Below are positions 1-21,910 of a DNA stretch of 21,910 bases, piece after piece (position 1 is the first letter of the stretch; the number at the start of each line of letters is the position of its first letter). A model generated the notes under the pieces. That model saw only the letters and a program-made list of their open reading frames with translations. It was not told the DNA's origin and ran no database searches. This DNA comes from a virus. Location: the IMG/VR virus record IMGVR_UViG_3300017764_000136, positions 1-21,910 of that record; one strand, written 5' to 3'. Position numbers and translations under genes: made by a program.

Positions 1-2349
1 AAGATTTTTTATTTCATCGTCTCCTATTTTCTCAATAGGTATATCGTAATTATCTGACGCTCTTTGTAAGTTTACAATCATTTCTACTTGATTAGGACTT
101 ATTGGATTCTTGCGTTCAGCTTCAAGGATTCTAGTGCGTTGCTCGTCCATAAACAATCCGCTTTGATTGCCATAGTCGGGATCATAATCTGTTTTCTGTC
201 TTTCATTTATTCCTTGATTGAAATAACTTCTAGGCTTTGGAGCTTCATCTACAAATTCTTTAGTAGCTGTTTGCTCAATGATCTCATCTAACATTTCAAT
301 TTCACCTACAATAGCAGACTCTTCTTTAGATTGCATTTCTGTTATTTTGCTAGGAGAAGTATCAACATCAAAGTCGTCTTTAAGAAGATCATCTAAATCA
401 CTTACGCCTTCTTCTGCATCGTTGTATCCTTCAGGAGTTTTTCCTTGCTCCCATCCTTCTTGCATCTCTGTTGTTTTACTAGGAGAAGTATCAATATCAA
501 GGTCGTCTTTAAAAACGTAGTCTAAATCGTCTACGTCTTCTCTCCACTCGTCGTTGTATCCTTCAGGCCAAACATCTTCTGCTTCAGCCCCTTCCTTCAC
601 ATCTTGTTTTAACTGTTGTAGTTTAGCTTTAACAGCTAAAGTTGCTTCTGGGTCACTAACCTCTCTTGCTTCTTTAGCTTCTTTCTTTAACTGTTCTAGT
701 CTTTCTTTAACTGTAGCAGTAGGTGCAACCTTATCTCTACCAAGGCTTCCTTCGTTGTATTTACTATAGTTTACAACAGCATCAAACTTAACCTTGGCTC
801 CTTCAGCAGACTCTCTACCTGCTTTAACCAAAGTGAGTTGCCTTCTAAAGTATGTTATTATCTTACGCTTTTTATCTAACGCACGATCAGCTTCTATGAC
901 CCCTTCAAAGGCTTCGTCCAAAGCAGACTCAATTCTAGAAAGAGATTCTTCTATGTCTATTTGACCGCTTTGAGCTTTGTCAAATTCGTTGTCCATTATA
1001 GGTTTAATTCTTTGACCTACCGTAGGAGGAATTAAAGGAGGTCTTCCTATCTCTGAAGCTCTTTGTCTTAAATTAGAAAGCTCTTGTTTAATGTTCTCAA
1101 CTTTGTTGTCGTCTCTTAAGACTCGCTCTTTAACTGCATTAAAAGAATTAAGTATTCCTTTATCTTTATCGTTTAGTTTTTTATTTTTTCTAAGTTTATT
1201 AAACACACCTTTACTAGCGGCAAATAAACCTTCTCCCATAAGACCCATACTAGTCCATATGGCCGCTTGCTTTACTGCTTCGTCTAGTTTTCCGTCAGAT
1301 TTATAATAGCCAACACCAAAACCTGCAGAGCCTTCACCGCCTAATAATTGGAAAGCAGTTCTTCCTTTTCCGCTTAATCCAATTTTAGTTCCAATTCTTC
1401 CTGCGGCCGCATACGATCCTAATCCGTAAGGCAACGACCCTGCTATAGTCCCTGCAACTTTAGACGGAGAAAACGAACCCCATTGAGTGTCTATGTCTCC
1501 TGCAAAAATGTCTTTATTGTCATCTGTTTCGATTAAGCCAAAAGTAAGACCGTCAATAACGCCTTTTTTAAATTCTCCAAATTCAGATTCTATTCTCCAC
1601 GGAGCTTCTTCGTCAATCCAATCAGTAGAGTATCCTGCGTTTTGAACTCGTTGAATCATGTCTATTTGATTTTCAGGAAACCTCTTAAGGACACCCATAA
1701 TTTTCTTTTTATGAGCAGAGCTTGGTTCTCTAAGCTTTCCTGTGTATGGCTTAGAAGGATCTTTAGATCTAGAAGGAATTATCTTTTCAAAATCTTGATA
1801 AAAATAATCAACGGCTTGTTGACCGCCTTCTTGCTTAACCATGTTTTTTCTAAACTCTTCAAGATTTAAATCAGTAAGTTTAGTATTTAAAGTGATCCGA
1901 TTCCCTTTTTTATCTCTCATCATAAGAGGGATATTAGTTTTAAGATTGCGATTGCCTTTAGCGTCGTCGTCTATAGGAGTGTATATGTCTGCAAACTGCC
2001 CAAACGTCTGACCTCTGTCTTCAGCCATAATACGGATCTGTTGAGTTAAAGCCTTATTGCCACTTTGTGGGCTGTCAAACACAACGAATCCTGCGTCTGT
2101 TGTGTCTACTACGCCTGTCCAAAACTTCTTGGCATCTTGAAGCTTTGCTCTAAGATTTCCGGGGTTGTTGTTATCGACGCTTGCAACAGGATTGTCTGGC
2201 TTGCGTATAGCAGAAGAATCACCCACTCCGCTTTCAGGTTCATTTGGTTTAAACCCTGCATACTTAACAAGCATATCTTCCAACGAAAGCTTTTCAATGT
2301 CTTTGTTAAGACCAAACATTAATTCGTTTACACTATTTATATTACTCAT
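1..2349 (-). CDS. Large internal virion protein with lysozyme-like N-terminal domain (3' end outside window)
   Basis: The frame is open for 783 codons, from ATG at 2349 to the left edge without a stop. The ATG overlaps the stop of the gene before it as ATGA, so it is probably translationally coupled. Residues about 55-130 contain NNNPGNLR (60-67), GFVVFDSP (about 87-94), a Gly-Asn-Lys-Ala-Leu stretch and TFGQFADIYTP. This is the pattern of the NNPGN-R / GFAVFDSPE-G--AL domain found in many phage virion proteins, sometimes labelled lysozyme-like or P5-like. I see no clear catalytic Glu before the motif. Residues about 290-325 are Gly/Ala-rich and hydrophobic. The rest is charged and helical, with an acidic tandem repeat at about 594-672. 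Large size, position after the fibre genes and low-complexity helices suggest an ejected internal virion protein, comparable in role to T7 gp15/gp16. The role is inferred; the domain match is moderately sure. Confidence 0.72.
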   Translation of the reverse strand, partial: MSNINSVNELMFGLNKDIEKLSLEDMLVKYAGFKPNEPESGVGDSSAIRKPDNPVASVDNNNPGNLRAKLQDAKKFWTGVVDTTDAGFVVFDSPQSGNKALTQQIRIMAEDRGQTFGQFADIYTPIDDDAKGNRNLKTNIPLMMRDKKGNRITLNTKLTDLNLEEFRKNMVKQEGGQQAVDYFYQDFEKIIPSRSKDPSKPYTGKLREPSSAHKKKIMGVLKRFPENQIDMIQRVQNAGYSTDWIDEEAPWRIESEFGEFKKGVIDGLTFGLIETDDNKDIFAGDIDTQWGSFSPSKVAGTIAGSLPYGLGSYAAAGRIGTKIGLSGKGRTAFQLLGGEGSAGFGVGYYKSDGKLDEAVKQAAIWTSMGLMGEGLFAASKGVFNKLRKNKKLNDKDKGILNSFNAVKERVLRDDNKVENIKQELSNLRQRASEIGRPPLIPPTVGQRIKPIMDNEFDKAQSGQIDIEESLSRIESALDEAFEGVIEADRALDKKRKIITYFRRQLTLVKAGRESAEGAKVKFDAVVNYSKYNEGSLGRDKVAPTATVKERLEQLKKEAKEAREVSDPEATLAVKAKLQQLKQDVKEGAEAEDVWPEGYNDEWREDVDDLDYVFKDDLDIDTSPSKTTEMQEGWEQGKTPEGYNDAEEGVSDLDDLLKDDFDVDTSPSKITEMQSKEESAIVGEIEMLDEIIEQTATKEFVDEAPKPRSYFNQGINERQKTDYDPDYGNQSGLFMDEQRTRILEAERKNPISPNQVEMIVNLQRASDNYDIPIEKIGDDEIKNL
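334..567 (-). repeat. Tandem in-frame repeat, 132-nt period, in the large virion protein gene
   Basis: Two copies (567-463 and 435-334 on the minus strand) start 132 nt, or 44 codons, apart. Each encodes PEGYND, then an acidic Asp/Leu segment, then DTSPSK-TEMQ. Copy 1 reads KDDLDIDTSPSKTTEMQ and copy 2 KDDFDVDTSPSKITEMQ. The DNA copies differ at many third positions and copy 2 is one codon shorter, so the duplication is not very recent and the protein sequence seems conserved. Confidence 0.85.
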
Positions 2350-3575
2350 TGATAAAATCCCATAGTAGGAAGAAACTCGTTTGTTGTTGCATCTCTGTTT
2401 GCTTCAAGTAACCTTCGTGCTTCTTCTTTAATTCTACGATCGTCTAAAGGTGACAAAGATCTTCTTTGAGTTCGATCTCCTAAAATGTTTTTCCTTGCTT
2501 GTTCCATAAATAAAGCCACCATAGGATTTTCCATTTCAAATGGATTGCTAGCTCCTTTAAGTGTAGTCGTTGCAAAATTCTTTCCACGATCACGTCCTCT
2601 TACAATTCTACCTTTATCTGCAAAGCCTAAACTTTGTAAAACAGAATCACTTGGATCAGAAAGATTTACTCCTCCTTCTCCTCTTTCTGTTAGTGTGCTA
2701 TTTGCTTGTGATTGCAAACTGTCATCAGGATTAGAAGATATATTTGAGTTCCCATATTCAATAGCTTCTTTTCTTTGTGTTTCGTAAGGTTTAAGGTGTT
2801 CAGGAACATTGCCTCCGTATACTTTTGTTAAAACACCCCAAAGTCTTTTGTACGCTTCGTCACCCATACCTGCTCTACTAGTAGAAGATGTAAGTAGATT
2901 TTCAATCTGACTTCTAATTTTCTTTAATTGTGGAGCAACTCGTTTGTTGTAAAGCATAGAATCTGGGTCTGATATAACACCCTGCACAAACTGTTCGCCC
3001 CCTGGGAAAAAGTCTGGCAACAAGAAGTCTTGCCAAGTTCCTTCGGCTAAACTTTCAGCCGCATTTTCAAGTGCTTCTATAGCCTTTAGTGAATTAATAG
3101 TTTTATTAGGATCGTCTGTTAATGGCAATAACTTTGTTAGCTCATCAAGGGCACCTTGTGCTGACGACCCTGCTATTCCTGCATTGGCTGAAATTGAATC
3201 AAACCAATCTTTAGTTAATCTATGTCTCCTGTCTTCTTCTAATTTTTGATTCATTCTTTTTGTTTCTGCTAAAGTTGCATTTTGATATACTATTTGTTGT
3301 TCTAATGCTTTTTGTCTATACGCTTCATCCTCTCCTTGCTTTTTCATTTGTTGCATAAAAGGATGTCGCTCGGACATAGTAGCCCTTGTAGTAGGATCAG
3401 ATGTTCCACCAAACAACCCTGCCATAAGTTTAGCACCAGTGCCTTCACCTTGCTGTTCAGGAGTCACATCAAATCCTTCACGGACTAATTCGTTTTGACG
3501 TTTAGCTTGTAATTGTCTACGGTCTTCGGCTCCTTTAATTTGATTGCCTAAACCACTAAGAATAAGATCTAACAT
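2346..3575 (-). CDS. Putative internal virion protein, 409 aa, mostly helical
   Basis: ATG at 3575 follows an AGGAGA ribosome-binding site with 8-nt spacing. The protein begins with a short amphipathic segment (MLDLILSGLGNQIKG). A long charged region likely to form coiled coil follows (about 70-125, rich in Gln, Lys, Glu and Arg), then helices to about residue 270 and a polar C-terminal third. I see no enzymatic motif, signal peptide or membrane segment. It sits between the 842-aa Gly/Gln-rich protein and the lysozyme-domain protein and overlaps the latter by 4 nt. In podoviruses this position is used for internal core or ejection proteins, which is the basis of the call. I do not recognise a specific family. 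Confidence 0.6.
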   Translation of the reverse strand: MLDLILSGLGNQIKGAEDRRQLQAKRQNELVREGFDVTPEQQGEGTGAKLMAGLFGGTSDPTTRATMSERHPFMQQMKKQGEDEAYRQKALEQQIVYQNATLAETKRMNQKLEEDRRHRLTKDWFDSISANAGIAGSSAQGALDELTKLLPLTDDPNKTINSLKAIEALENAAESLAEGTWQDFLLPDFFPGGEQFVQGVISDPDSMLYNKRVAPQLKKIRSQIENLLTSSTSRAGMGDEAYKRLWGVLTKVYGGNVPEHLKPYETQRKEAIEYGNSNISSNPDDSLQSQANSTLTERGEGGVNLSDPSDSVLQSLGFADKGRIVRGRDRGKNFATTTLKGASNPFEMENPMVALFMEQARKNILGDRTQRRSLSPLDDRRIKEEARRLLEANRDATTNEFLPTMGFYQ

Positions 3576-3587
3576 TATATAAGTCTC

Positions 3588-6116
3588 CTAAGAAAAATAT
3601 CCACCCTGCGTGTTTTTAGGCTCAACATAATTAAACCCACCTAAGTCATTAGGAGGAGGAGTAACAGGCGTTGACGTTAAGGGTTGTGAAACTTGAGCTT
3701 GTGGCTTATTAAAAGCATTATAAAGGCTTGTACCAAGACCTTGAATATTTTGACGATTATTAGCTATGTTTTGCCCTGCCGTATTTGCAACATTAGCTAA
3801 TCCAGTAGAAGCGGCTCCCATGTTAGGCTGTATCATTGAACCCATTGGCCCACCCATCATACTTAATCCAGTATCTTGATAAGTCAAAGGATCCATGTAA
3901 CCTGCTTGATTTTGAGCCATAAACTGAGTACCCTGCTGATTAGCTTGGTTTTGATAATTAGATTGGTCGCTCATTTCTTGACGAACTCTTTGTTGTTCAG
4001 CTCCTTGGAATTGATTTAAATCACTAAGTCTATTCCTTCGGATACCCTCATCTGCTTGAGCCGCTTGCATTCCAAACTGAGAAGTAAGATTGCCAATTTG
4101 TGCTTCTTCAGCTTCAGATATTTTCCTCATCTGTTCTCTTAATAAAGGCGTATCTAATCCCATTACGCCAAAACGATTAACTAATTTTTCTCTTGCATCA
4201 TCATATCTTTGCCTGACATCATCTATAGGCCCAGATAAAATTTGATCTCTTCTAGTGTCAAAAGGATTTGCCTGATCTAATGCACCTAACAACCTGTCCA
4301 TTAACGGTGCTCTCATCATTTCACTGTAGTCGTATATTTCAGGCATATCAAGTATAGGTTGATTGTATAAAGCTTGATTTCCTCTGCCACCTGTATTGAT
4401 ATTAAAATCTCCACTATCACTTATTGCATCTTGAACATCTTTAATTCCAACGTCAGCAACATCAATAGCATCGCCAGTAAGCTGTTCCATGCTTTTTTGG
4501 TAAAACTGATCTATTTGATCTTGAGTAAATTGAGGCATAGCAGAAAAAGCATCTCCAACTGCACTTCCTACAACGTCACCCAAACCTACATTAGCTCCTA
4601 ATCCAAGACCTTCTTTCATTCTGTTTATAATACCTTCTCCACCAAGAAAGTTTTGTAAGGTATCAAACTGACCGCCAAATTGATCTCCTAATAATCCTAA
4701 TTCTTGTTCTATGTCATAGATTGCTCCAAGATTACTTGGGTCGTTAGGATCTCCAAACAATCCTGTGTTAAGCAAATCAAACTGACCTCCTAACCCACCA
4801 AAACCTGAACTTAGCTGATCGCCTATATTAAGAAAACCTGAACCTAACTCACGATCTAATGCTCCAAGTTGTCCACCTATTTGAGTATTAAGGGTATCAA
4901 ATTCTTGGCCGATAAAACCGTCTGGAGATCCAAGCGTTCCTAATGTGTTTTGTAATCCAGTTAAAGATCCACCTATCCCTTCATCCCCTAAAAGATTTTG
5001 TATTCCTTCAAAATTAAGTTGTAAGTCTGAAAGATCAGATCCCATTTGAGTTTGACTGTCTATAATTCCACTTAAATTTGGGCCTTGGACGGTAATGTCA
5101 GGATTAAATAAGTTTTCATTGTTTGTAAAAAATCTTCTAAACGCATCATTTAATTGATTAAGATTTAAGCCACCGCCACCACCACCGACAACTTCACCTA
5201 AACCATCGCCTCCACTAATTATGCTAGTCATAAGATTAGGGTCAGTAAAAGTAGAGCTAAGTTCTTGTCCTGTAGGACTTGTAAATTGTATGGTTCCATC
5301 AGGCCCCATAACCATTTGTCCACCTGTACCTATCATCCCATCATTACCACTCCCTAAAGCGGAACCACCTGATGTGCTTTGTTTTGCACTTGACCTGTTT
5401 TTACCAGATCTAATGTCACTTAAATATTGATTAAAAACTGACTGTGCATCTTGAGGTCTTTCAACAGAAGAATCTCCTCCACGTCCCTCAGAGTCAACTA
5501 GCAATCCTCCCTCGGTTACTCCTGCAAAAGTTCCGTCTGAATTAAGCTGAAAACTTCTAGGATTTATTTCTCCTTCTGGGCCTCTATCTCCAGGAATTGA
5601 AGCTGAAGTAACTTTTCTAATTTCTTGTTCTTGTTCTATTTCTTCAGGAGTTACAGGTTCAGGTCTGTCAGGAGCAAATCCTCTTGCCACTGATTGTCTC
5701 AACCAATGAGGAACACCTGCTTGCATTAACTCTTCTTCTGTAAACCCAAGGTTTTGTCCACTTTGGACATTCCCAGTTTGTTCAAGCAAGGATTGTCGGC
5801 CACCTTCTCTTCCGTCAGAAAATCCACCATAGTTAGACTTAGCGTCTTGTAAAGCTTGAGTTAAACCAACTTGTCCTACAGGCATTTGAAATCTTGCAGA
5901 GTCATCTACTTTATTACCCATCAAGCCAGAACCCATACCGCCTTGAAGTGCAATGTTACCTACATCTACGCCGAGTTGATCTGCAATCACTGCAAGTTGA
6001 TTTGAAGCATAATCTCTAGCTTGAGGGCCAACTAATCTCCGATCAACAAGTCTCCCACCAACAGTCCTTGTTTTCGGCATTTGTGCTCTCATCATTTCTT
6101 CTTGCCATGTAGCCAT
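3588..6116 (-). CDS. Putative internal virion protein, 842 aa, Gly/Gln-rich with amphipathic repeats
   Basis: ATG at 6116 lies 6 nt after the previous stop and is preceded by AAGGG. The N-terminal 300 residues are polar, Gly-rich and look disordered, ending in a run of six glycines near residue 313. Residues about 365-495 form imperfect repeats in which hydrophobic residues alternate with Gly, Gln and Asp (QEFDTLNTQIGGQLGALD, GGLGGQFDLLNTGLFGD, GDQFGGQFDTLQNFLGGEG). Residues about 610-700 are charged and helical, and the C-terminus is Gln/Asn/Gly/Pro-rich. There is no catalytic motif. Size, composition and position between coiled-coil proteins fit a podovirus internal or ejection protein. A tape-measure-like role is less likely because no long-tail genes are present. 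Confidence 0.6.
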   Translation of the reverse strand: MATWQEEMMRAQMPKTRTVGGRLVDRRLVGPQARDYASNQLAVIADQLGVDVGNIALQGGMGSGLMGNKVDDSARFQMPVGQVGLTQALQDAKSNYGGFSDGREGGRQSLLEQTGNVQSGQNLGFTEEELMQAGVPHWLRQSVARGFAPDRPEPVTPEEIEQEQEIRKVTSASIPGDRGPEGEINPRSFQLNSDGTFAGVTEGGLLVDSEGRGGDSSVERPQDAQSVFNQYLSDIRSGKNRSSAKQSTSGGSALGSGNDGMIGTGGQMVMGPDGTIQFTSPTGQELSSTFTDPNLMTSIISGGDGLGEVVGGGGGGLNLNQLNDAFRRFFTNNENLFNPDITVQGPNLSGIIDSQTQMGSDLSDLQLNFEGIQNLLGDEGIGGSLTGLQNTLGTLGSPDGFIGQEFDTLNTQIGGQLGALDRELGSGFLNIGDQLSSGFGGLGGQFDLLNTGLFGDPNDPSNLGAIYDIEQELGLLGDQFGGQFDTLQNFLGGEGIINRMKEGLGLGANVGLGDVVGSAVGDAFSAMPQFTQDQIDQFYQKSMEQLTGDAIDVADVGIKDVQDAISDSGDFNINTGGRGNQALYNQPILDMPEIYDYSEMMRAPLMDRLLGALDQANPFDTRRDQILSGPIDDVRQRYDDAREKLVNRFGVMGLDTPLLREQMRKISEAEEAQIGNLTSQFGMQAAQADEGIRRNRLSDLNQFQGAEQQRVRQEMSDQSNYQNQANQQGTQFMAQNQAGYMDPLTYQDTGLSMMGGPMGSMIQPNMGAASTGLANVANTAGQNIANNRQNIQGLGTSLYNAFNKPQAQVSQPLTSTPVTPPPNDLGGFNYVEPKNTQGGYFS

Positions 6117-6121
6117 GTTTT

Positions 6122-6676
6122 TTACCCTTTAGCCCTTGTCAAAATATTATCTCCCACAATCTCTGAGCGAACAGGAGCAACATTGCTTGAACCTACCAAA
6201 GGATTTTGTTGAACTTTTGGTTTGTCAGCTTCTTTAAAAGTAACAGGATTAGTTTCTCCTATTCTTTGCTGTAAGGCTCTTGCTAATTGAGGATTTAAAA
6301 ACTGTCCTTCTTCTGTCTTTTGAAGTTGAGACATTGAAGGAGCAACCCTTTTGAGATTTGCATATGGATTAGTTGCCTGAAAACTTCTTTGCATAAACTG
6401 AGGAACAGACCTTTCGTTTCTTTGCCTTAAAGCACTGTATAAATCTTTCCTAAAAGGAAGATCCATTTCAGATTGTTCTTTTTGTAAATCAAACATAGCT
6501 CTAGCTAATTTAAGCTGTTCGTTCATTGCTTTACTTTGAGCTTTATTTGACCCTCTGTTTTGAAAGAAATCTAAAGCTAACGGAAGACCTACTGCACCGA
6601 TAGGCCCACCTAAAGCTCCTCCTACCGCACCTGCAAGAATATCTGTAAGACCTTTATCTTTGTCTTCTTCAGCCAA
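6122..6676 (-). CDS. Small virion-associated protein with Gly/Ala-rich hydrophobic segment, TTG start
   Basis: The best start is TTG at 6676. It stands one base after the TAA of the upstream gene and exactly 6 nt after a perfect AGGAGG site. A longer frame from another TTG at 6706 would overlap the upstream gene and put AGGAGG inside the coding region. The 184-aa product starts MAEEDKDKGLTDILAG. It has a Gly/Ala/Leu-rich segment (about 12-38, AGAVGGALGGPIGAVGLPLA) that could insert in a membrane, then helical Gln-rich sequence. Such a segment near the N-terminus is common in ejected virion proteins that help form the DNA channel across the cell envelope; this role is an inference. No family is recognised. 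Confidence 0.62.
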   Translation of the reverse strand: MAEEDKDKGLTDILAGAVGGALGGPIGAVGLPLALDFFQNRGSNKAQSKAMNEQLKLARAMFDLQKEQSEMDLPFRKDLYSALRQRNERSVPQFMQRSFQATNPYANLKRVAPSMSQLQKTEEGQFLNPQLARALQQRIGETNPVTFKEADKPKVQQNPLVGSSNVAPVRSEIVGDNILTRAKG

Positions 6677-6677
6677 T

Positions 6678-7037
6678 TTAAACCTCCTCTTCTTCCATTT
6701 CGGCAACTTCTTTAGCTTGAGCTTGTAAGATAGTTCGCCTATCGTGTAATTGTTTTAAGTCATTAGAGCAGTTAAATACTGAAGCTTTAATTGCTTTTAA
6801 CTGTTGTATTTTTTTAAACCGAATAGTACCAATCATTTTTTCTACTTCTTCAACTGTATTATCTTCAGACAAACCAACCTTAACATGATCTAACTTAGCT
6901 TCTGTTAAAGATTCGGCTTGTAACATTTGGCTGTAGTTTTTAATTTCAGAATGCAATCGAGCACTTAACTTTTGGACTCTTTCAAAATCACGCAAATCAA
7001 TTTCATGTAGCTTTTCTTCAAATGTTGGTTCAGCCAT
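6678..7037 (-). CDS. Small coiled-coil protein, 119 aa
   Basis: ATG at 7037 follows AGGAGA, which lies inside the last codons of the upstream gene, so the two genes abut. The whole product is predicted helical by eye, with heptad-like spacing of Leu/Ile/Val and many Glu, Lys and Gln, and it ends in an acidic tail (EMEEEEV). There is one cysteine. It has no membrane segment or enzyme motif. It begins the run of putative internal virion proteins and may be a core or assembly protein. Function unknown. Confidence 0.6.
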   Translation of the reverse strand: MAEPTFEEKLHEIDLRDFERVQKLSARLHSEIKNYSQMLQAESLTEAKLDHVKVGLSEDNTVEEVEKMIGTIRFKKIQQLKAIKASVFNCSNDLKQLHDRRTILQAQAKEVAEMEEEEV

Positions 7038-15419: not shown

Positions 15420-16772
15420 TTAGCCGTTATTCTTAAGACCATCAATTCTGAAATGCTTAGAACCGTCGGTAGTTCCAAGGTTGGCATACCAGAATAACGT
15501 AGCTTTGTAAGCCGCTTTTCCGTCAACACGGTGCAAGATGTTACCATCCGTATCATCAAAGTCCCAATCGGCCAACTGATAGATCTTCAAGTGATTTTCA
15601 TCAAGTCCAAAGATCGAATCAGTATCATCAGTTGATTGGGTAAAATTGTTGGAATAGTTTGTAAAGGCACCAGAAGTAGGACAATCAATATCCCAAACGA
15701 TTGGAATACCTGCCCAGTTAATAGCCGTAAAGCCACCATCAAGTTCCATGTCAGTAGCATAACGACGTTGACCTGTTAGTGTCCGACCAATTCTACGGAA
15801 CTGCGTTGGTGTAGTAAGCATGATTGTCGTTTCTGCTTCGTTCTCTGATTGAGCACTTAGCAATGAATCGTCAATCAAGTTTGGCCCAACGTCACTAGCT
15901 CCATTCATGTCTACTGGAGTTGATCCGTCAGAATTGTCTCCATAAACTGCCGCCGCCCATTCAGGATTTGCACCACGGTCAATACCCTGAAGAGATCCAG
16001 TAGCACTAACGATTTTTGAAAGACCGTCAATCTCATTGTTGAGACTTCCAAATCTGACATACGTATCCGTAGACACACTGGCAATTTCTGTTCCTGCGGC
16101 AGGGTTTTCTATGGTAATTTCAGCACCATTAGCACCCTTGGCCCCTACTGAGGCAACAGTATAACCAGTAGATATGTTGTGAACATTAGCGTCATAAGTT
16201 CCAGTAGAAGCATCAATAGATTGAAATATCATTCCTTTTTTAAAGTAATGACCATTTTGAACTACAAATGTATTACTATCAACCGAATCATCTGCAACCT
16301 TTATACCAATAGTACCTGATCCATCGCCCCAAAACTGACGGTTAATGTCATTCTTTAGATCACGACGAATACCATCCATTTCAGCACTCATAGCCTTTAC
16401 CCAAGCACCTCTGTCATTTTTAGAAGCTTGCATAACTGGATGAGTTACTTGTATTGTTCCATAATTGAAAGCATATCCAATCGTGGACTCTACAAATGTC
16501 TGGTTTTGTGGTGTTGGTAATGTTGGCCCACCGTCTGCATCAGCTCTAGCACCAATCGCATTTGAACCACGAATGTTGATAGGTAGCCTTGCGTGACGAC
16601 CTGATACATCTGTTTTTCCTGCATCTCGCTCTAAACGAGACATCAATACCCTACGCTCGTTTACCGTGCTAACAAGACGAGGAAGATAAAATTCTTTAAG
16701 AGCCGCATTAAAACTACCTGCTGTTGCGGTATATTCCTGCGTTTGTGCTCCTAAGAAGGCTGAATCTGCCAT
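15420..16772 (-). CDS. Major capsid protein, 450 aa
   Basis: The ATG at 16772 is 6 nt from the scaffold stop. The product starts MADSAFLGAQTQEYTATAG. It continues with FNAALKEFYLPRLVSTVNE and ESTIGYAFNYGTIQVTHPVM, then DLKNDINRQFWGDGSGTIG near 155-175. This series is characteristic of a tailed-phage major capsid protein class of the HK97 fold. The C-terminal part (about 330-450) includes ELDGGFTAINWAGIPIVWD and a strand-rich end. The gene follows the scaffold and precedes tandem hairpins. Oddly for the most abundant virion protein, only an A-rich stretch with GAAAG lies at ribosome-binding distance; GGAGG is 19 nt upstream. The fold is inferred from class, the identity is strong. Confidence 0.88.
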   Translation of the reverse strand: MADSAFLGAQTQEYTATAGSFNAALKEFYLPRLVSTVNERRVLMSRLERDAGKTDVSGRHARLPINIRGSNAIGARADADGGPTLPTPQNQTFVESTIGYAFNYGTIQVTHPVMQASKNDRGAWVKAMSAEMDGIRRDLKNDINRQFWGDGSGTIGIKVADDSVDSNTFVVQNGHYFKKGMIFQSIDASTGTYDANVHNISTGYTVASVGAKGANGAEITIENPAAGTEIASVSTDTYVRFGSLNNEIDGLSKIVSATGSLQGIDRGANPEWAAAVYGDNSDGSTPVDMNGASDVGPNLIDDSLLSAQSENEAETTIMLTTPTQFRRIGRTLTGQRRYATDMELDGGFTAINWAGIPIVWDIDCPTSGAFTNYSNNFTQSTDDTDSIFGLDENHLKIYQLADWDFDDTDGNILHRVDGKAAYKATLFWYANLGTTDGSKHFRIDGLKNNG

Positions 16773-17714: not shown

Positions 17715-19868
17715 CTATTGTTGCGTAGGAACTGTTTGTCCTCCTACACCAGTTTGGGCTAATTGGTCAGCTACCTGCTCAGGAGCACCTTTGGCCGCTT
17801 GAGCTTGCTGTTGCATAGCCATTTGTTGTTGTTGCATAAATTGCTGATGTATTTGTGCTCGTTGACGTATTAACTCTTTTACGTCATCTGAAAGATTTTC
17901 AAAATCACTTGTTAGCATATAATCTTTATAGACTTGAAACTGTATAGAATGATTGTCTACAGATTCGGGAGGAGGCGGTGCTTCTCCTTCTTTCATTTTT
18001 TCTAAATATCTACGTGCTTTTTTAGCATCTAATGTATATTCAGAATCAAAGCCTTTAATATCTAATAACTCTAATATTTTTCCACGCACCATAGGGTTGC
18101 GAGTATCACCAAGTAAACCCATCTGAGCGGCATTCATTACTTTTTGCCTTTGGGCTGATTGGGAATAATCCATCCCAATAGACACTCGGACAGTCATATC
18201 GGACGCTTGACGCAAATCTGCACCAGTTAAAAAATAAGATTCTAATTCTTTGTTGTCTCCTAAAATTCGGACGACTCGACTCTCTTTCCAATGTTGGTTG
18301 GCAAGTTTAAGCTTCTTATGTTCGTGTTCAGAAAGCCCTGCTCTCCACATTTTTACCAGTGGGCCGAATCGCCTAAATGCCTGTTCTTGCATAGCTTCGA
18401 TAGCCGCTCCTGTTTCAGGACCAGGTGGTACGTTGCCTTGCAATACTTCTTTAGCCCCAGAAACAAGTTCCATGTCCATCTTTACTTGTTCACGTTCTTG
18501 CATTACCTGATTAGGTAAAGGAACACCTTGCATTCGTTCTGGCTTAAAACCACCTGAAGTAGAAGGAGTCCATCTAATCATAAGCCCAGACCTACCGTCT
18601 ACTTTATTTACGCCAGACCCTTCAGGAACAAGCCATTGATTTGAAATCATTTGCTTGCGATTTTGAACAACATGAGAGTCAATAGCGTTTAGTCTTTTCT
18701 GCATTGGAATCAAATCATTTAAAAGAGAAATACCCCAAAACCCATCGGGGACACTTCTGTATTTTAAATGAGTGTAAGGAAGTTTTCCGTCACCACAATC
18801 GTCCAATGGGCCTTGGTGTAGAATTTTCCCATTAGCAACAATAAGCAACATTCCATTTTTCCATCTTCTGTCTGGAACATGACGAAACCATTTTACTAAA
18901 GCATGGTCATCCATACTTTCTTGGTCTTGTCCAAAGTTCATATTTAAAGCTTGGGCATACAAACCGCCATAAGAATCAAACTCTAAAGCTTCAGGCATAA
19001 CATCTTTTGCTTTAGATCCAAACAATTCTTTAATATTATCAATAGCCATTGCTTCAGTTTCAATAGCGTAACGCACACGCTTCATGTCTGTAGCAGGTTC
19101 AGGGTAAAAGTTTAAAGGAGATATTAAATTTTCTTGAATATTTCCAATAGAATACTCATCATACTCCCCTGTCTCTTCTTCAACATCAAGCATTACCTCT
19201 TTACCCATATCGTCTAATTGATATGCTTTTCCTGAAATCATAGGCCCACGACATTCAGGACATGCAGAATATTGTAAAATAGCAGGTTCTATTCTACCAC
19301 AATTAGTGCATTCAAGAGTGCTTTGTTCTATTGGTTTTTTACCTAATTTTTTCTTAGGAATACGCATTTTATCGCCTTTATTAGCATTCCATGTTGTGCT
19401 AATAAAACAGTTTCCTGCAACCGCTAGCCATAAAGCGGCAGGGATAATAATGTTTTGCTCTGTTCCTAATCGTCCAAACTCTGAATGTAAAACTCTGGTA
19501 GCCGCTCTAGCCGCATCTACGTCAGGCTGATCTTGCGTTGCAGGATCTACTATGGGCAGTAAATCACCAGAAGTAAAAATATCTAATATTCGATCTACGT
19601 GATCTATGGTAAGATTTGTCATAGGAGTCGGAACCCACTCATCAAGAGAGTGTTTTACAAACTTCCTATTATGAGGAAGAAAACGAACCCATTGGTCTGA
19701 ACTGTAAAAATGTATAGCTTCTTTTACTTGTTGTTCAAAGCTAGACCTATGTGCTGAAAGGTAGCTCCATGTATTTTCTACAAAATTAAGGACATCTTCT
19801 TTTGATGTCGGCTTTGTTTTTGTAGCCGAAACAGGAGCAGACTGTATGCCTTCTTGAGAATAATTCAT
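17715..19868 (-). CDS. Portal protein, 717 aa, with zinc-ribbon insertion
   Basis: ATG at 19868 is preferred to GTG at 19874. It forms a TAATG overlap with the upstream stop and has AAGG 10 nt before it. Portal features are a helical N-terminus (VENTWSYLSAHRSSFEQQVK), DEWVPTPMTNLTIDHVDRI near 77-95, and GFWGISLLNDLIPMQKRLNA in the core. A helical stem and clip region follow, including GNVPPGPETGAAIEAMQEQA. The C-terminus is Gln/Ala-rich. Length fits large podovirus portals of about 700 residues. An extra loop has Cys187-x2-Cys190 and Cys203-x2-Cys206, a probable zinc ribbon. The dodecameric ring would form the DNA entry channel and bind the terminase. Confidence 0.87.
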   Translation of the reverse strand: MNYSQEGIQSAPVSATKTKPTSKEDVLNFVENTWSYLSAHRSSFEQQVKEAIHFYSSDQWVRFLPHNRKFVKHSLDEWVPTPMTNLTIDHVDRILDIFTSGDLLPIVDPATQDQPDVDAARAATRVLHSEFGRLGTEQNIIIPAALWLAVAGNCFISTTWNANKGDKMRIPKKKLGKKPIEQSTLECTNCGRIEPAILQYSACPECRGPMISGKAYQLDDMGKEVMLDVEEETGEYDEYSIGNIQENLISPLNFYPEPATDMKRVRYAIETEAMAIDNIKELFGSKAKDVMPEALEFDSYGGLYAQALNMNFGQDQESMDDHALVKWFRHVPDRRWKNGMLLIVANGKILHQGPLDDCGDGKLPYTHLKYRSVPDGFWGISLLNDLIPMQKRLNAIDSHVVQNRKQMISNQWLVPEGSGVNKVDGRSGLMIRWTPSTSGGFKPERMQGVPLPNQVMQEREQVKMDMELVSGAKEVLQGNVPPGPETGAAIEAMQEQAFRRFGPLVKMWRAGLSEHEHKKLKLANQHWKESRVVRILGDNKELESYFLTGADLRQASDMTVRVSIGMDYSQSAQRQKVMNAAQMGLLGDTRNPMVRGKILELLDIKGFDSEYTLDAKKARRYLEKMKEGEAPPPPESVDNHSIQFQVYKDYMLTSDFENLSDDVKELIRQRAQIHQQFMQQQQMAMQQQAQAAKGAPEQVADQLAQTGVGGQTVPTQQ

Positions 19869-20158
19869 TACCACTTAACCTTATCGGCCCAATATGCGGC
19901 TGACATAGGACCTTTCTTAATATTCTTAGAGTGTCTTGCTTTAAAGCTAGCACGTTTCTTTTTCATTCTATCTGACTCACCTGCTTTAGGTTTCCCTGCG
20001 GTACTAGCTCCTTGTTCGCCAAATCGTATTGTCTTAACTTGGCCTTTACTTTTAGCTACAACCACATGAGACTTCTTGGGATGATTGGGTGTTCTTTTAG
20101 GCTTATTGTACCCAGAAACCCCTACTCTTGTAAGTCTGCTGTCTTTTTTTTGTGCCAT
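19868..20158 (-). CDS. Small basic conserved phage protein, 96 aa
   Basis: ATG at 20158 follows GGGAG with 10-nt spacing and is the first gene after the terminator-promoter region. The product is highly basic. Its C-terminal half (VKTIRFGEQGASTAGKP, then KRASFKARHSKNIKKGPMSAAYWADKVKW) matches a short family I have seen in many phages. In it K-IRFG--G is followed by SFKARH-KNI-KGKMSAAYWA-KVKW. The function of that family is unknown to me. The position immediately before the portal, with a TAATG overlap, suggests a role in packaging or head assembly, perhaps as a DNA-binding protein. Confidence 0.68.
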   Translation of the reverse strand: MAQKKDSRLTRVGVSGYNKPKRTPNHPKKSHVVVAKSKGQVKTIRFGEQGASTAGKPKAGESDRMKKKRASFKARHSKNIKKGPMSAAYWADKVKW

Positions 20159-21023: not shown

Positions 21024-21746
21024 CTATACGAGTGATTCCGAAGTAGATGAATATGAGTGTTCTTTTATTTCTTTCGATCTTATTTGATTTACGTGCCGAT
21101 CAATTAGTCCCACATCCGTATCCTCTACGTCTTCATCGTCTAAACTACGCCCTTCCCACAACGGTTCTAAATCTAATTCTGAACTTGCCATACGCTCACA
21201 AGCTATACGCATCATCTCGCAGGTAATAACCCAACACATTACAAGGTCATCGTGACCGCCTGGAATTGCTGAGTATTTAAGGTTTTGTAATACGAATATT
21301 TCAAACTGAGAAACAAGCTCTTTAGACTTTGTTATAGCGTCTCCGTCCTGCATCATATGCCGAGCTTGTGCTACTAACTTATGCCTGTTGCGAATATTAA
21401 TATTAATGCCAAGGTTTTCAGTAAAGCGATCATAAGTTTTTCCATCGTCTTTGATCTCTTTGTATATATTAGGATATTCAAGCTTTGCTAATAGCCTATT
21501 TGCACCACCATCTTTATTTGACTCTATACCAATTAACGCATAGTTATACCAAGCCCCAAGCATATAAGCATGTTCAGCAAAAGCAAAAGGCTCTATTTTG
21601 CCTTGTATCTCGGCAACTTGAACGCCGTTAGTGCAATCTATAACCTGTAAAACACTATCGTCACCATGAGCCAACCCTTCAGCAGGGTCGCCTCCAATAG
21701 CGTAAACATGGTCTTTGTTAGGTTTGTACCATATCCTCAACTGCAT
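21024..21746 (-). CDS. terL: Terminase large subunit, nuclease domain (separate reading frame)
   Basis: The product cuts concatemeric DNA during packaging. Counting from ATG at 21746, it starts MQLRIWYKPNKDHVYAIGGD. Motifs of the RNase H-like terminase nuclease are Asp20 in IGGDPAEG, Asp29/30 in HGDDS, Glu75 in IGIESNKDG, and Asp166/167 in GGHDDLVM. About 60 charged residues follow as a tail. A stop (TAG 21767-21765) lies upstream in this frame, so the ATPase part is not in frame. AAGGTG stands 3 nt before the ATG and could allow its own start; GTG at 21752 is less well placed. The gene encodes only the C-terminal half of a normal terminase. Either it is a second polypeptide, or it is reached by a +1 frameshift from the upstream frame. 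Confidence 0.85.
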   Translation of the reverse strand: MQLRIWYKPNKDHVYAIGGDPAEGLAHGDDSVLQVIDCTNGVQVAEIQGKIEPFAFAEHAYMLGAWYNYALIGIESNKDGGANRLLAKLEYPNIYKEIKDDGKTYDRFTENLGININIRNRHKLVAQARHMMQDGDAITKSKELVSQFEIFVLQNLKYSAIPGGHDDLVMCWVITCEMMRIACERMASSELDLEPLWEGRSLDDEDVEDTDVGLIDRHVNQIRSKEIKEHSYSSTSESLV

Positions 21747-21910
21747 AGTCACCTTCTGATAATTCTATAAACTCTACTTCACCGTCTATAAACTGCAACT
21801 CCCCATCATACTTAGGATCTTGCGTTAAGTATCGCATTTTCCGAATAAGCTTTGTTGGAAAAGCTAATTTAACACCCATAGGGACAAATTGTCCATAGAC
21901 ACGAGCATCA
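21718..21910 (-). CDS. terL: Terminase large subunit, end of the ATPase part (5' part outside window)
   Basis: An open frame enters from the right edge and runs 63 codons to TAA at 21720-21718. The first residues (DARVYGQFVPMGVKLAFPTK) match the end of the terminase ATPase domain, where ARVYGEFV---G-LAFP precedes the linker to the nuclease. The linker continues LIRKMRYLTQDPKYDGELQF to about SEGDY; the next residues (AVEDMVQT) do not look like terminase. The nuclease homology resumes one base out of phase directly after the codon for that Tyr. Walker motifs, if present, lie outside the window. Confidence 0.72.
   Translation of the reverse strand, partial: DARVYGQFVPMGVKLAFPTKLIRKMRYLTQDPKYDGELQFIDGEVEFIELSEGDYAVEDMVQT

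Follow-up and report, generated by a model that had tools for sequence, protein, structure and literature searches.

ATPase and nuclease of the large terminase lie in separate genes across a lineage of viral contigs

The large terminase of an uncultured virus changes reading frame between its ATPase and nuclease parts. Is this change real, and is the terminase made as one protein or as two? We analyzed the metagenome contig IMGVR_UViG_3300017764_000136, positions 1–21,910; this whole stretch of 21,910 nt is referred to as the window. The minus strand at its end carries the 3′ part of a terminase ATPase gene (21718–21909), 63 codons that remain open at the contig end, while full-length orthologues of the gene comprise 344–354 codons. 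The ATPase frame ends with VEFIELSEGDYAVEDMVQT and the stop codon TAA at 21720–21718. In the +1 frame, the codons GTG ACT are followed by ATG CAG TTG AGG ATA TGG, which are read as MQLRIWYKPNKDHVYAIGGD. The ATG at 21746–21744 opens a separate ORF on the minus strand (21024–21746), coding for a nuclease of 240 aa that is RNase H-like and of the T4 gp17 type. The two genes share an overlap of 29 nt (21718–21746, minus strand), no homopolymer is present at the site of the frame change, and a Shine–Dalgarno-like AGGTGA (21749–21754, minus strand), part of AAGGTGA at 21755–21749, precedes the nuclease ATG. The preliminary description of this locus had reported the frame change, the ATG at 21746, the AAGGTG, the 29-nt overlap and the lack of a homopolymer, and was right in each of these points and in all coordinates. 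It had also read the upstream frame as terminase, an assignment that is secured through the full-length genes of two related contigs, L002 and L003, and not from the 63 codons of the window alone, where the A3 profile matches positions 21760–21909 with an E-value of 1.3e-14.

Aligning related contigs at the junction, the check that the preliminary description had proposed, demonstrates that the frame change is conserved. L002 and L003, which come from other metagenomes and were found with the nuclease query, align to the window over 1,100 nt at 90–91% nucleotide identity with zero gaps. Both keep the two frames, the ATG and the stop of the window, and both have the identical 29-nt overlap with one substitution, located in the third position of the nuclease frame. 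Of the substitutions before the junction, 10 of 12 and 9 of 11 hit third codon positions as read in the ATPase frame; beyond it, 58 of 68 and 51 of 68 hit third positions as read in the nuclease frame. Both terminase halves are under strong purifying selection, with dN/dS of 0.02 in the ATPase and 0.03–0.06 in the nuclease. The switch of codon-position bias and the low dN/dS therefore indicate that both frames are translated and selected as they stand. The previously suggested assembly indel is refuted by the two contigs from different metagenomes, and an indel or an isolated inactivating mutation has a negligible probability, since the same arrangement recurs without indels in L002 and L003, other geometries occur in more than 50 contigs, strong purifying selection acts on both frames, and no points in favor of either were found.

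The ATPase family shows the features of an ASCE ATPase of large terminases (TerL), namely Walker A, Walker B/Glu and the coupling motif, in the relatives of the window, which itself retains the last part of the gene only. In 16 full-length relatives the Walker A (GNRxGK), Walker B (DEVQP) and TP coupling motifs are invariant or near-invariant; the ATPase matches the terminase family PHROG 2 (E-value 1e-11), and Pfam Terminase_6N matches 7 of the 16. The nuclease family has invariant D20, E75 and D166/D167, the Asp/Glu/Asp triad of an RNase H-fold nuclease described for T4 gp17 (PMC9958956). In the window the corresponding codons all lie on the minus strand: Asp20 (in GGD) at 21687–21689 is aligned with the catalytic Asp401 of T4 gp17, Glu75 (in GIES) at 21522–21524 with the T4 Glu458 region, and the HDD of residues 165–167 (in GGHDDLVM) at 21246–21254 with the T4 Asp542 region. 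The sequence match to the nuclease of T4/RB49 gp17 (E-value 7e-8) runs through all three catalytic residues, and the terminase family PHROG 24361 matches the nuclease with an E-value of 1e-11. The two folds, their order and the catalytic triad are the same as in T4 gp17 (3CPE/3EZK) and the RB49 nuclease (3C6A). T4 gp17, however, is one polypeptide, whereas here there are two genes, with an ATPase from another terminase lineage. The terminase belongs to the packaging module of a tailed virus, encoded on the same strand, which includes a portal protein (17715–19874, minus strand) and a major capsid protein (15420–16772, minus strand) of families common to 18 of 20 and 17 of 20 tested relatives, respectively. 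Adjoining the portal gene, window positions 19868–20158 contain a 96-aa basic ORF that matches the uncharacterized PHROG 7595 over its whole length (E-value 1e-41).

IMG/VR was scanned with nuclease and ATPase profiles. Approximately 58 contigs, a set that contains the window, some near-copies and many fragments, have the ATPase and the nuclease in separate ORFs and reach down to ~30% protein identity. The same separation is found in every nuclease relative at ≥42% identity for which the 5′ flank is present; the distinct outgroup nucleases with full 5′ sequence are all fused (30 of 30, three rows cut by the contig end being set aside). This pattern of separation in the relatives of the window is far beyond chance. 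Because the ATPase and the nuclease are separate ORFs instead of covalently joined domains, we classify the protein as a two-subunit variant and not as an ordinary TerL. The tested records showed a single ATPase and a single nuclease per contig and no additional TerL, and the ATPase profile revealed no bacterial or archaeal relatives in 84,980 genomes scanned.

The geometry of the junction varies widely. Among 41 distinct junctions the nuclease start lies between −44 and +3,352 nt relative to the end of the ATPase stop: nine overlap by at least 20 nt, 12 overlap by less, and 15 are more than 100 nt apart, so that the geometries range from overlaps (44 to 1 nt) through directly adjoining genes to gaps of as much as 3.35 kb. 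Relative frames 1, 0 and 2 occur in 17, 12 and 12 junctions. Other genes can intervene: L116 has an M15 peptidase gene there, L123, whose terminase genes are 3.35 kb apart, has glycosyltransferase-type genes, and L017 and L031 have small ORFs without an assigned function. The intervening stretch of L123 (IMGVR_UViG_3300017963_000365, 4534–6954) carries a 347-aa ORF without a family and an RGP-type glycosyltransferase (PF03214, E-value 1e-38). In L028 (2522–2985) and L037 (2509–2961), helix-turn-helix-looking ORFs between the ATPase and nuclease genes appear TerS-like by reading of the sequence, with no family matched as TerS.

Two ways of restoring a single protein can be judged against these junctions. 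An intron or intein between the halves could be spliced out to leave one protein. The terL of Jug phages is likewise found as two or three ORFs and is rejoined by group I intron splicing (PMC12363816), and an intein-bearing TerL is annotated in a kuttervirus. The 0.2–3.4 kb that separate the halves in some members would accommodate such an element, but the overlapping and abutting junctions, that of the window among them, have no space for an insert, the search of nine loci returned no Rfam match, group I and II introns included, and the ORFs in between are of peptidase, glycosyltransferase or TerS-like type, not homing endonucleases. Unlike the Jug phage genes, these nine loci yielded no intron match, and splicing is an exceedingly improbable explanation. 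Programmed +1 frameshifting in the 29-nt overlap, the second option of the preliminary description, would join both frames into one terminase. An overlap in the +1 relation is compatible with this, and a group with overlaps of 41–44 nt (L021, L026, L029 and L033) shares that frame relation. However, a conserved frame relation and shift site are absent from the lineage: the second gene occupies all three relative frames, abuts the first or lies far downstream past other genes, and in L013 the nuclease sits behind an in-frame TAG. The ATPase gene ends in CAA ACC TAA in the window and CAA GCC TAA in L002 and L003, neither of which is a recognized slippery stop context, and the ATG with its AGG-type site is kept while the surrounding bases change. 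Frameshifting is thus untenable as a general mechanism and may occur as a rare extra event in the subclade of the window; as an account of the locus we consider it very improbable. The varied frames, the overlaps, the gaps and the lack of an Rfam match in nine loci exclude frameshift, intron and intein as a shared mechanism and leave two polypeptides. In all likelihood, then, the large terminase of this lineage consists of two separate polypeptides from two genes, the first of the options originally proposed, in which a genuine two-subunit terminase is made by translational coupling.

The products would be an ATPase chain of ~340–350 aa with Walker A, Walker B and coupling motifs, and a nuclease chain of ~240 aa with an RNase H fold and the full catalytic triad. 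In the window subclade, nuclease translation would begin at a dedicated ATG within the 3′ end of the ATPase gene, and this start very likely depends on translational coupling, with re-initiation at the Shine–Dalgarno-like site. Such a site is found at the same place before the nuclease ATG in L002 (AGGTGAT), L003 (GAGG) and L094 (GAGG); its AGG-type bases differ among these contigs and the window, so the site persists despite base changes. An alternative nuclease start, GTG at 21752, is absent from L003, and the ATG at 21746 is therefore preferred. Elsewhere in the lineage, Shine–Dalgarno sites are short or missing in some split members, and other members display start–stop overlaps (TAATG, ATGA) that fit translational coupling. 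Coupling would keep the two terminase products in step.

The position of the break relative to the protein fold was approached with a model of the pair from L013, where both genes lie in one frame with a TAG between them. The pair was folded as a single chain in which the TAG was read as a residue, a modeling device that makes no claim of readthrough. An earlier prediction from 18 sequences was poor (pLDDT 63); the model from 36 aligned sequences (A8) has a mean pLDDT of 79.7 and a pTM of 0.56, at which the placement of the domains is unreliable, and its global rmsd is large. Its best PDB match is T4 gp17 (3CPE, E-value 6e-19), and, taken separately, its nuclease domain matches that of RB49 (TM 0.77) and its ATPase domain that of P74-26 (TM 0.65). 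Most ATPase chains end 41–66 residues past a conserved VPxG motif (136 in L019), and many end just past a conserved strand-turn-strand, which in the window is GELQFIDGEVEFIEL (21760–21804, minus strand). This tail is conserved in nearly all split ATPases, and in the L013 model it forms strands 317–323 and 329–333 with pLDDT of ~87–91. The nuclease chain begins a few residues before a W/F aligned with residue 387 of T4 gp17, whereas the solved RB49 nuclease construct starts ~50 residues before that aligned position. The comparison implies that the break probably falls slightly inside the nuclease-side fold, with an N-terminal β-hairpin left on the ATPase chain. The preliminary description had placed the frame change exactly at the ATPase–nuclease junction; this is approximately so, the T4 gp17 alignment and the model putting the break inside the nuclease fold. 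Its further statement that homology continues across the junction with no residues lost goes too far: the C-terminal tail of the ATPase varies among relatives, and SEGDY/QLRIW is for this reason not a precise ancestral join.

How two such chains might work together is a separate matter. They probably assemble in trans on the portal as one packaging motor, in which the ATPase ring would pump and the nuclease would make the initiation and headful cuts. We tentatively suggest docking through the conserved β-hairpin at the C terminus of the ATPase; fused terminases have this hairpin within the nuclease-side fold, and here it would complete the nuclease sheet. T4 DNA translocation needs both domains within full-length gp17 (PMC9958956), and gp17 split at the linker kept ATPase and nuclease functions but reportedly lost translocation (PMC3012670). 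Function in trans needs explaining because of this reported loss. A different arrangement of the two polypeptides, rather unlikely in our judgment, would have the ATPase ring pump alone, as the phi29 ATPase does, with a non-stoichiometric nuclease recruited only for cutting. Gene spacing of up to 3.35 kb does not demand equal expression, and nuclease-dead T4 gp17 still packages linear DNA (PMC9958956), both of which speak for recruitment. Against it, translocation in T4 is said to require the nuclease domain and the groove that this domain bears (PMC3012670), and the conserved hairpin of the ATPase tail suggests a standing contact. Distances between ATPases and between nucleases correlate closely (26 pairs, Mantel r 0.92, with 0 of 2000 permutations as high), which indicates that the two genes travel and evolve together; such tight co-evolution fits the stoichiometric and the recruited version alike. 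Returning to the motor assembled in trans, the chances appear roughly even that this is a widespread lineage in which the ATPase of one terminase lineage works with a nuclease captured from another, held by the hairpin, and that a covalent linker is no general requirement for translocation.

The two halves point to different sources. In profile–profile comparisons the split ATPase scores 293 against the Jasmine-type ATPase and 59 against the other lineage, whereas the split nuclease scores 326 against nucleases of the T4-like lineage and has no match to the Jasmine type; the Jasmine-type alignment has six members only, which makes this good, not final, evidence for two sources. Among the TerLs tested, fused proteins retrieved with the nuclease do not match the ATPase profile, and those retrieved with the ATPase do not match the nuclease profile. 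Arthrobacter and Microbacterium phages of the Jasminevirus type (Casserole, Jasmine, Shocker and DS1) are the closest isolates for the ATPase, capsid and portal. Since capsid and portal also point to these phages, the ATPase looks native and the nuclease acquired, and from the sequence comparisons a Jasminevirus-type ATPase looks to have been combined with a T4 gp17-type nuclease. In Casserole and Shocker, however, TerL is a single protein of 526–527 aa, the nuclease half of which has no detectable similarity to the split nuclease. The closest named fused homologues of the nuclease (34–36%) are the TerL of Vibrio phage 252E42.2 and related TerLs (PHROG 38407/24361); the Vibrio phage protein is fused, 563 aa long, and its ATPase half does not match the split ATPase profile.

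Four fused contigs from three lineages (L139, L140, L148 and L183, all in IMG/VR) match both profiles and thus have the same combination of ATPase and nuclease in a single ORF. The existence of these fused forms implies that fission came after the combination, or that rare re-fusions took place. Nuclease and ATPase trees each keep most split members together, 28 split rows grouping in a careful ATPase tree (94/98), and the same capsid and portal families are present throughout the split lineage. In the ATPase tree, the fused L139 and L140 group with the split L141, apart from the main split clade. A topology that unites every split row in a single clade is rejected (AU p 0.002), a simple single fission is not supported, and the history calls for a minimum of two events, either two separate fissions or a fission plus a re-fusion. 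The fused 527-aa TerL of L183 (3309–4892) lies among Jasmine-type ATPases in the tree and carries a nuclease of the T4-like lineage, possibly an independent domain exchange.

Shorter products of T4 gene 17 arise from internal starts, and in some actinophage annotations the ATPase and nuclease domains carry separate names. In the open-access literature we found no description of a stable two-gene ATPase/nuclease TerL; a lead that pointed to cluster AN Arthrobacter phages as a precedent proved false. The collections searched contain no known isolate of the split lineage. In the best-known packaging model, that of T4, a linker described as essential couples the ATPase to the nuclease/translocation domain. 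Here a comparable split has been made and kept by evolution across proteins differing at up to ~70% of positions, which provides a natural system for asking what contacts, in place of a covalent linker, pass on force and turn the nuclease on or off, and whether the moving motor includes the nuclease. TerL is also a marker gene. NCBIfam recognizes neither half and Pfam is inconsistent, so these viruses may be missed or misplaced, and because the halves point to different relatives, TerL trees depend on the half used.

Two further observations concern individual contigs. L278 (IMGVR_UViG_3300008517_000642, 1022–3512) encodes a 415-aa ATPase ORF, a 114-aa ORF and then a 291-aa nuclease ORF; the ATPase profile barely matches (score 21), the nuclease profile scores 121, and the locus suggests a second, apparently unrelated split terminase and splitting on more than one occasion. 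In L019 (1252–2565) and L020, the ATPase has a C-terminal extension of ~90 residues with several CxxC/CxxH-like pairs, zinc-ribbon-like in appearance, which sits where other members have only the hairpin tail.
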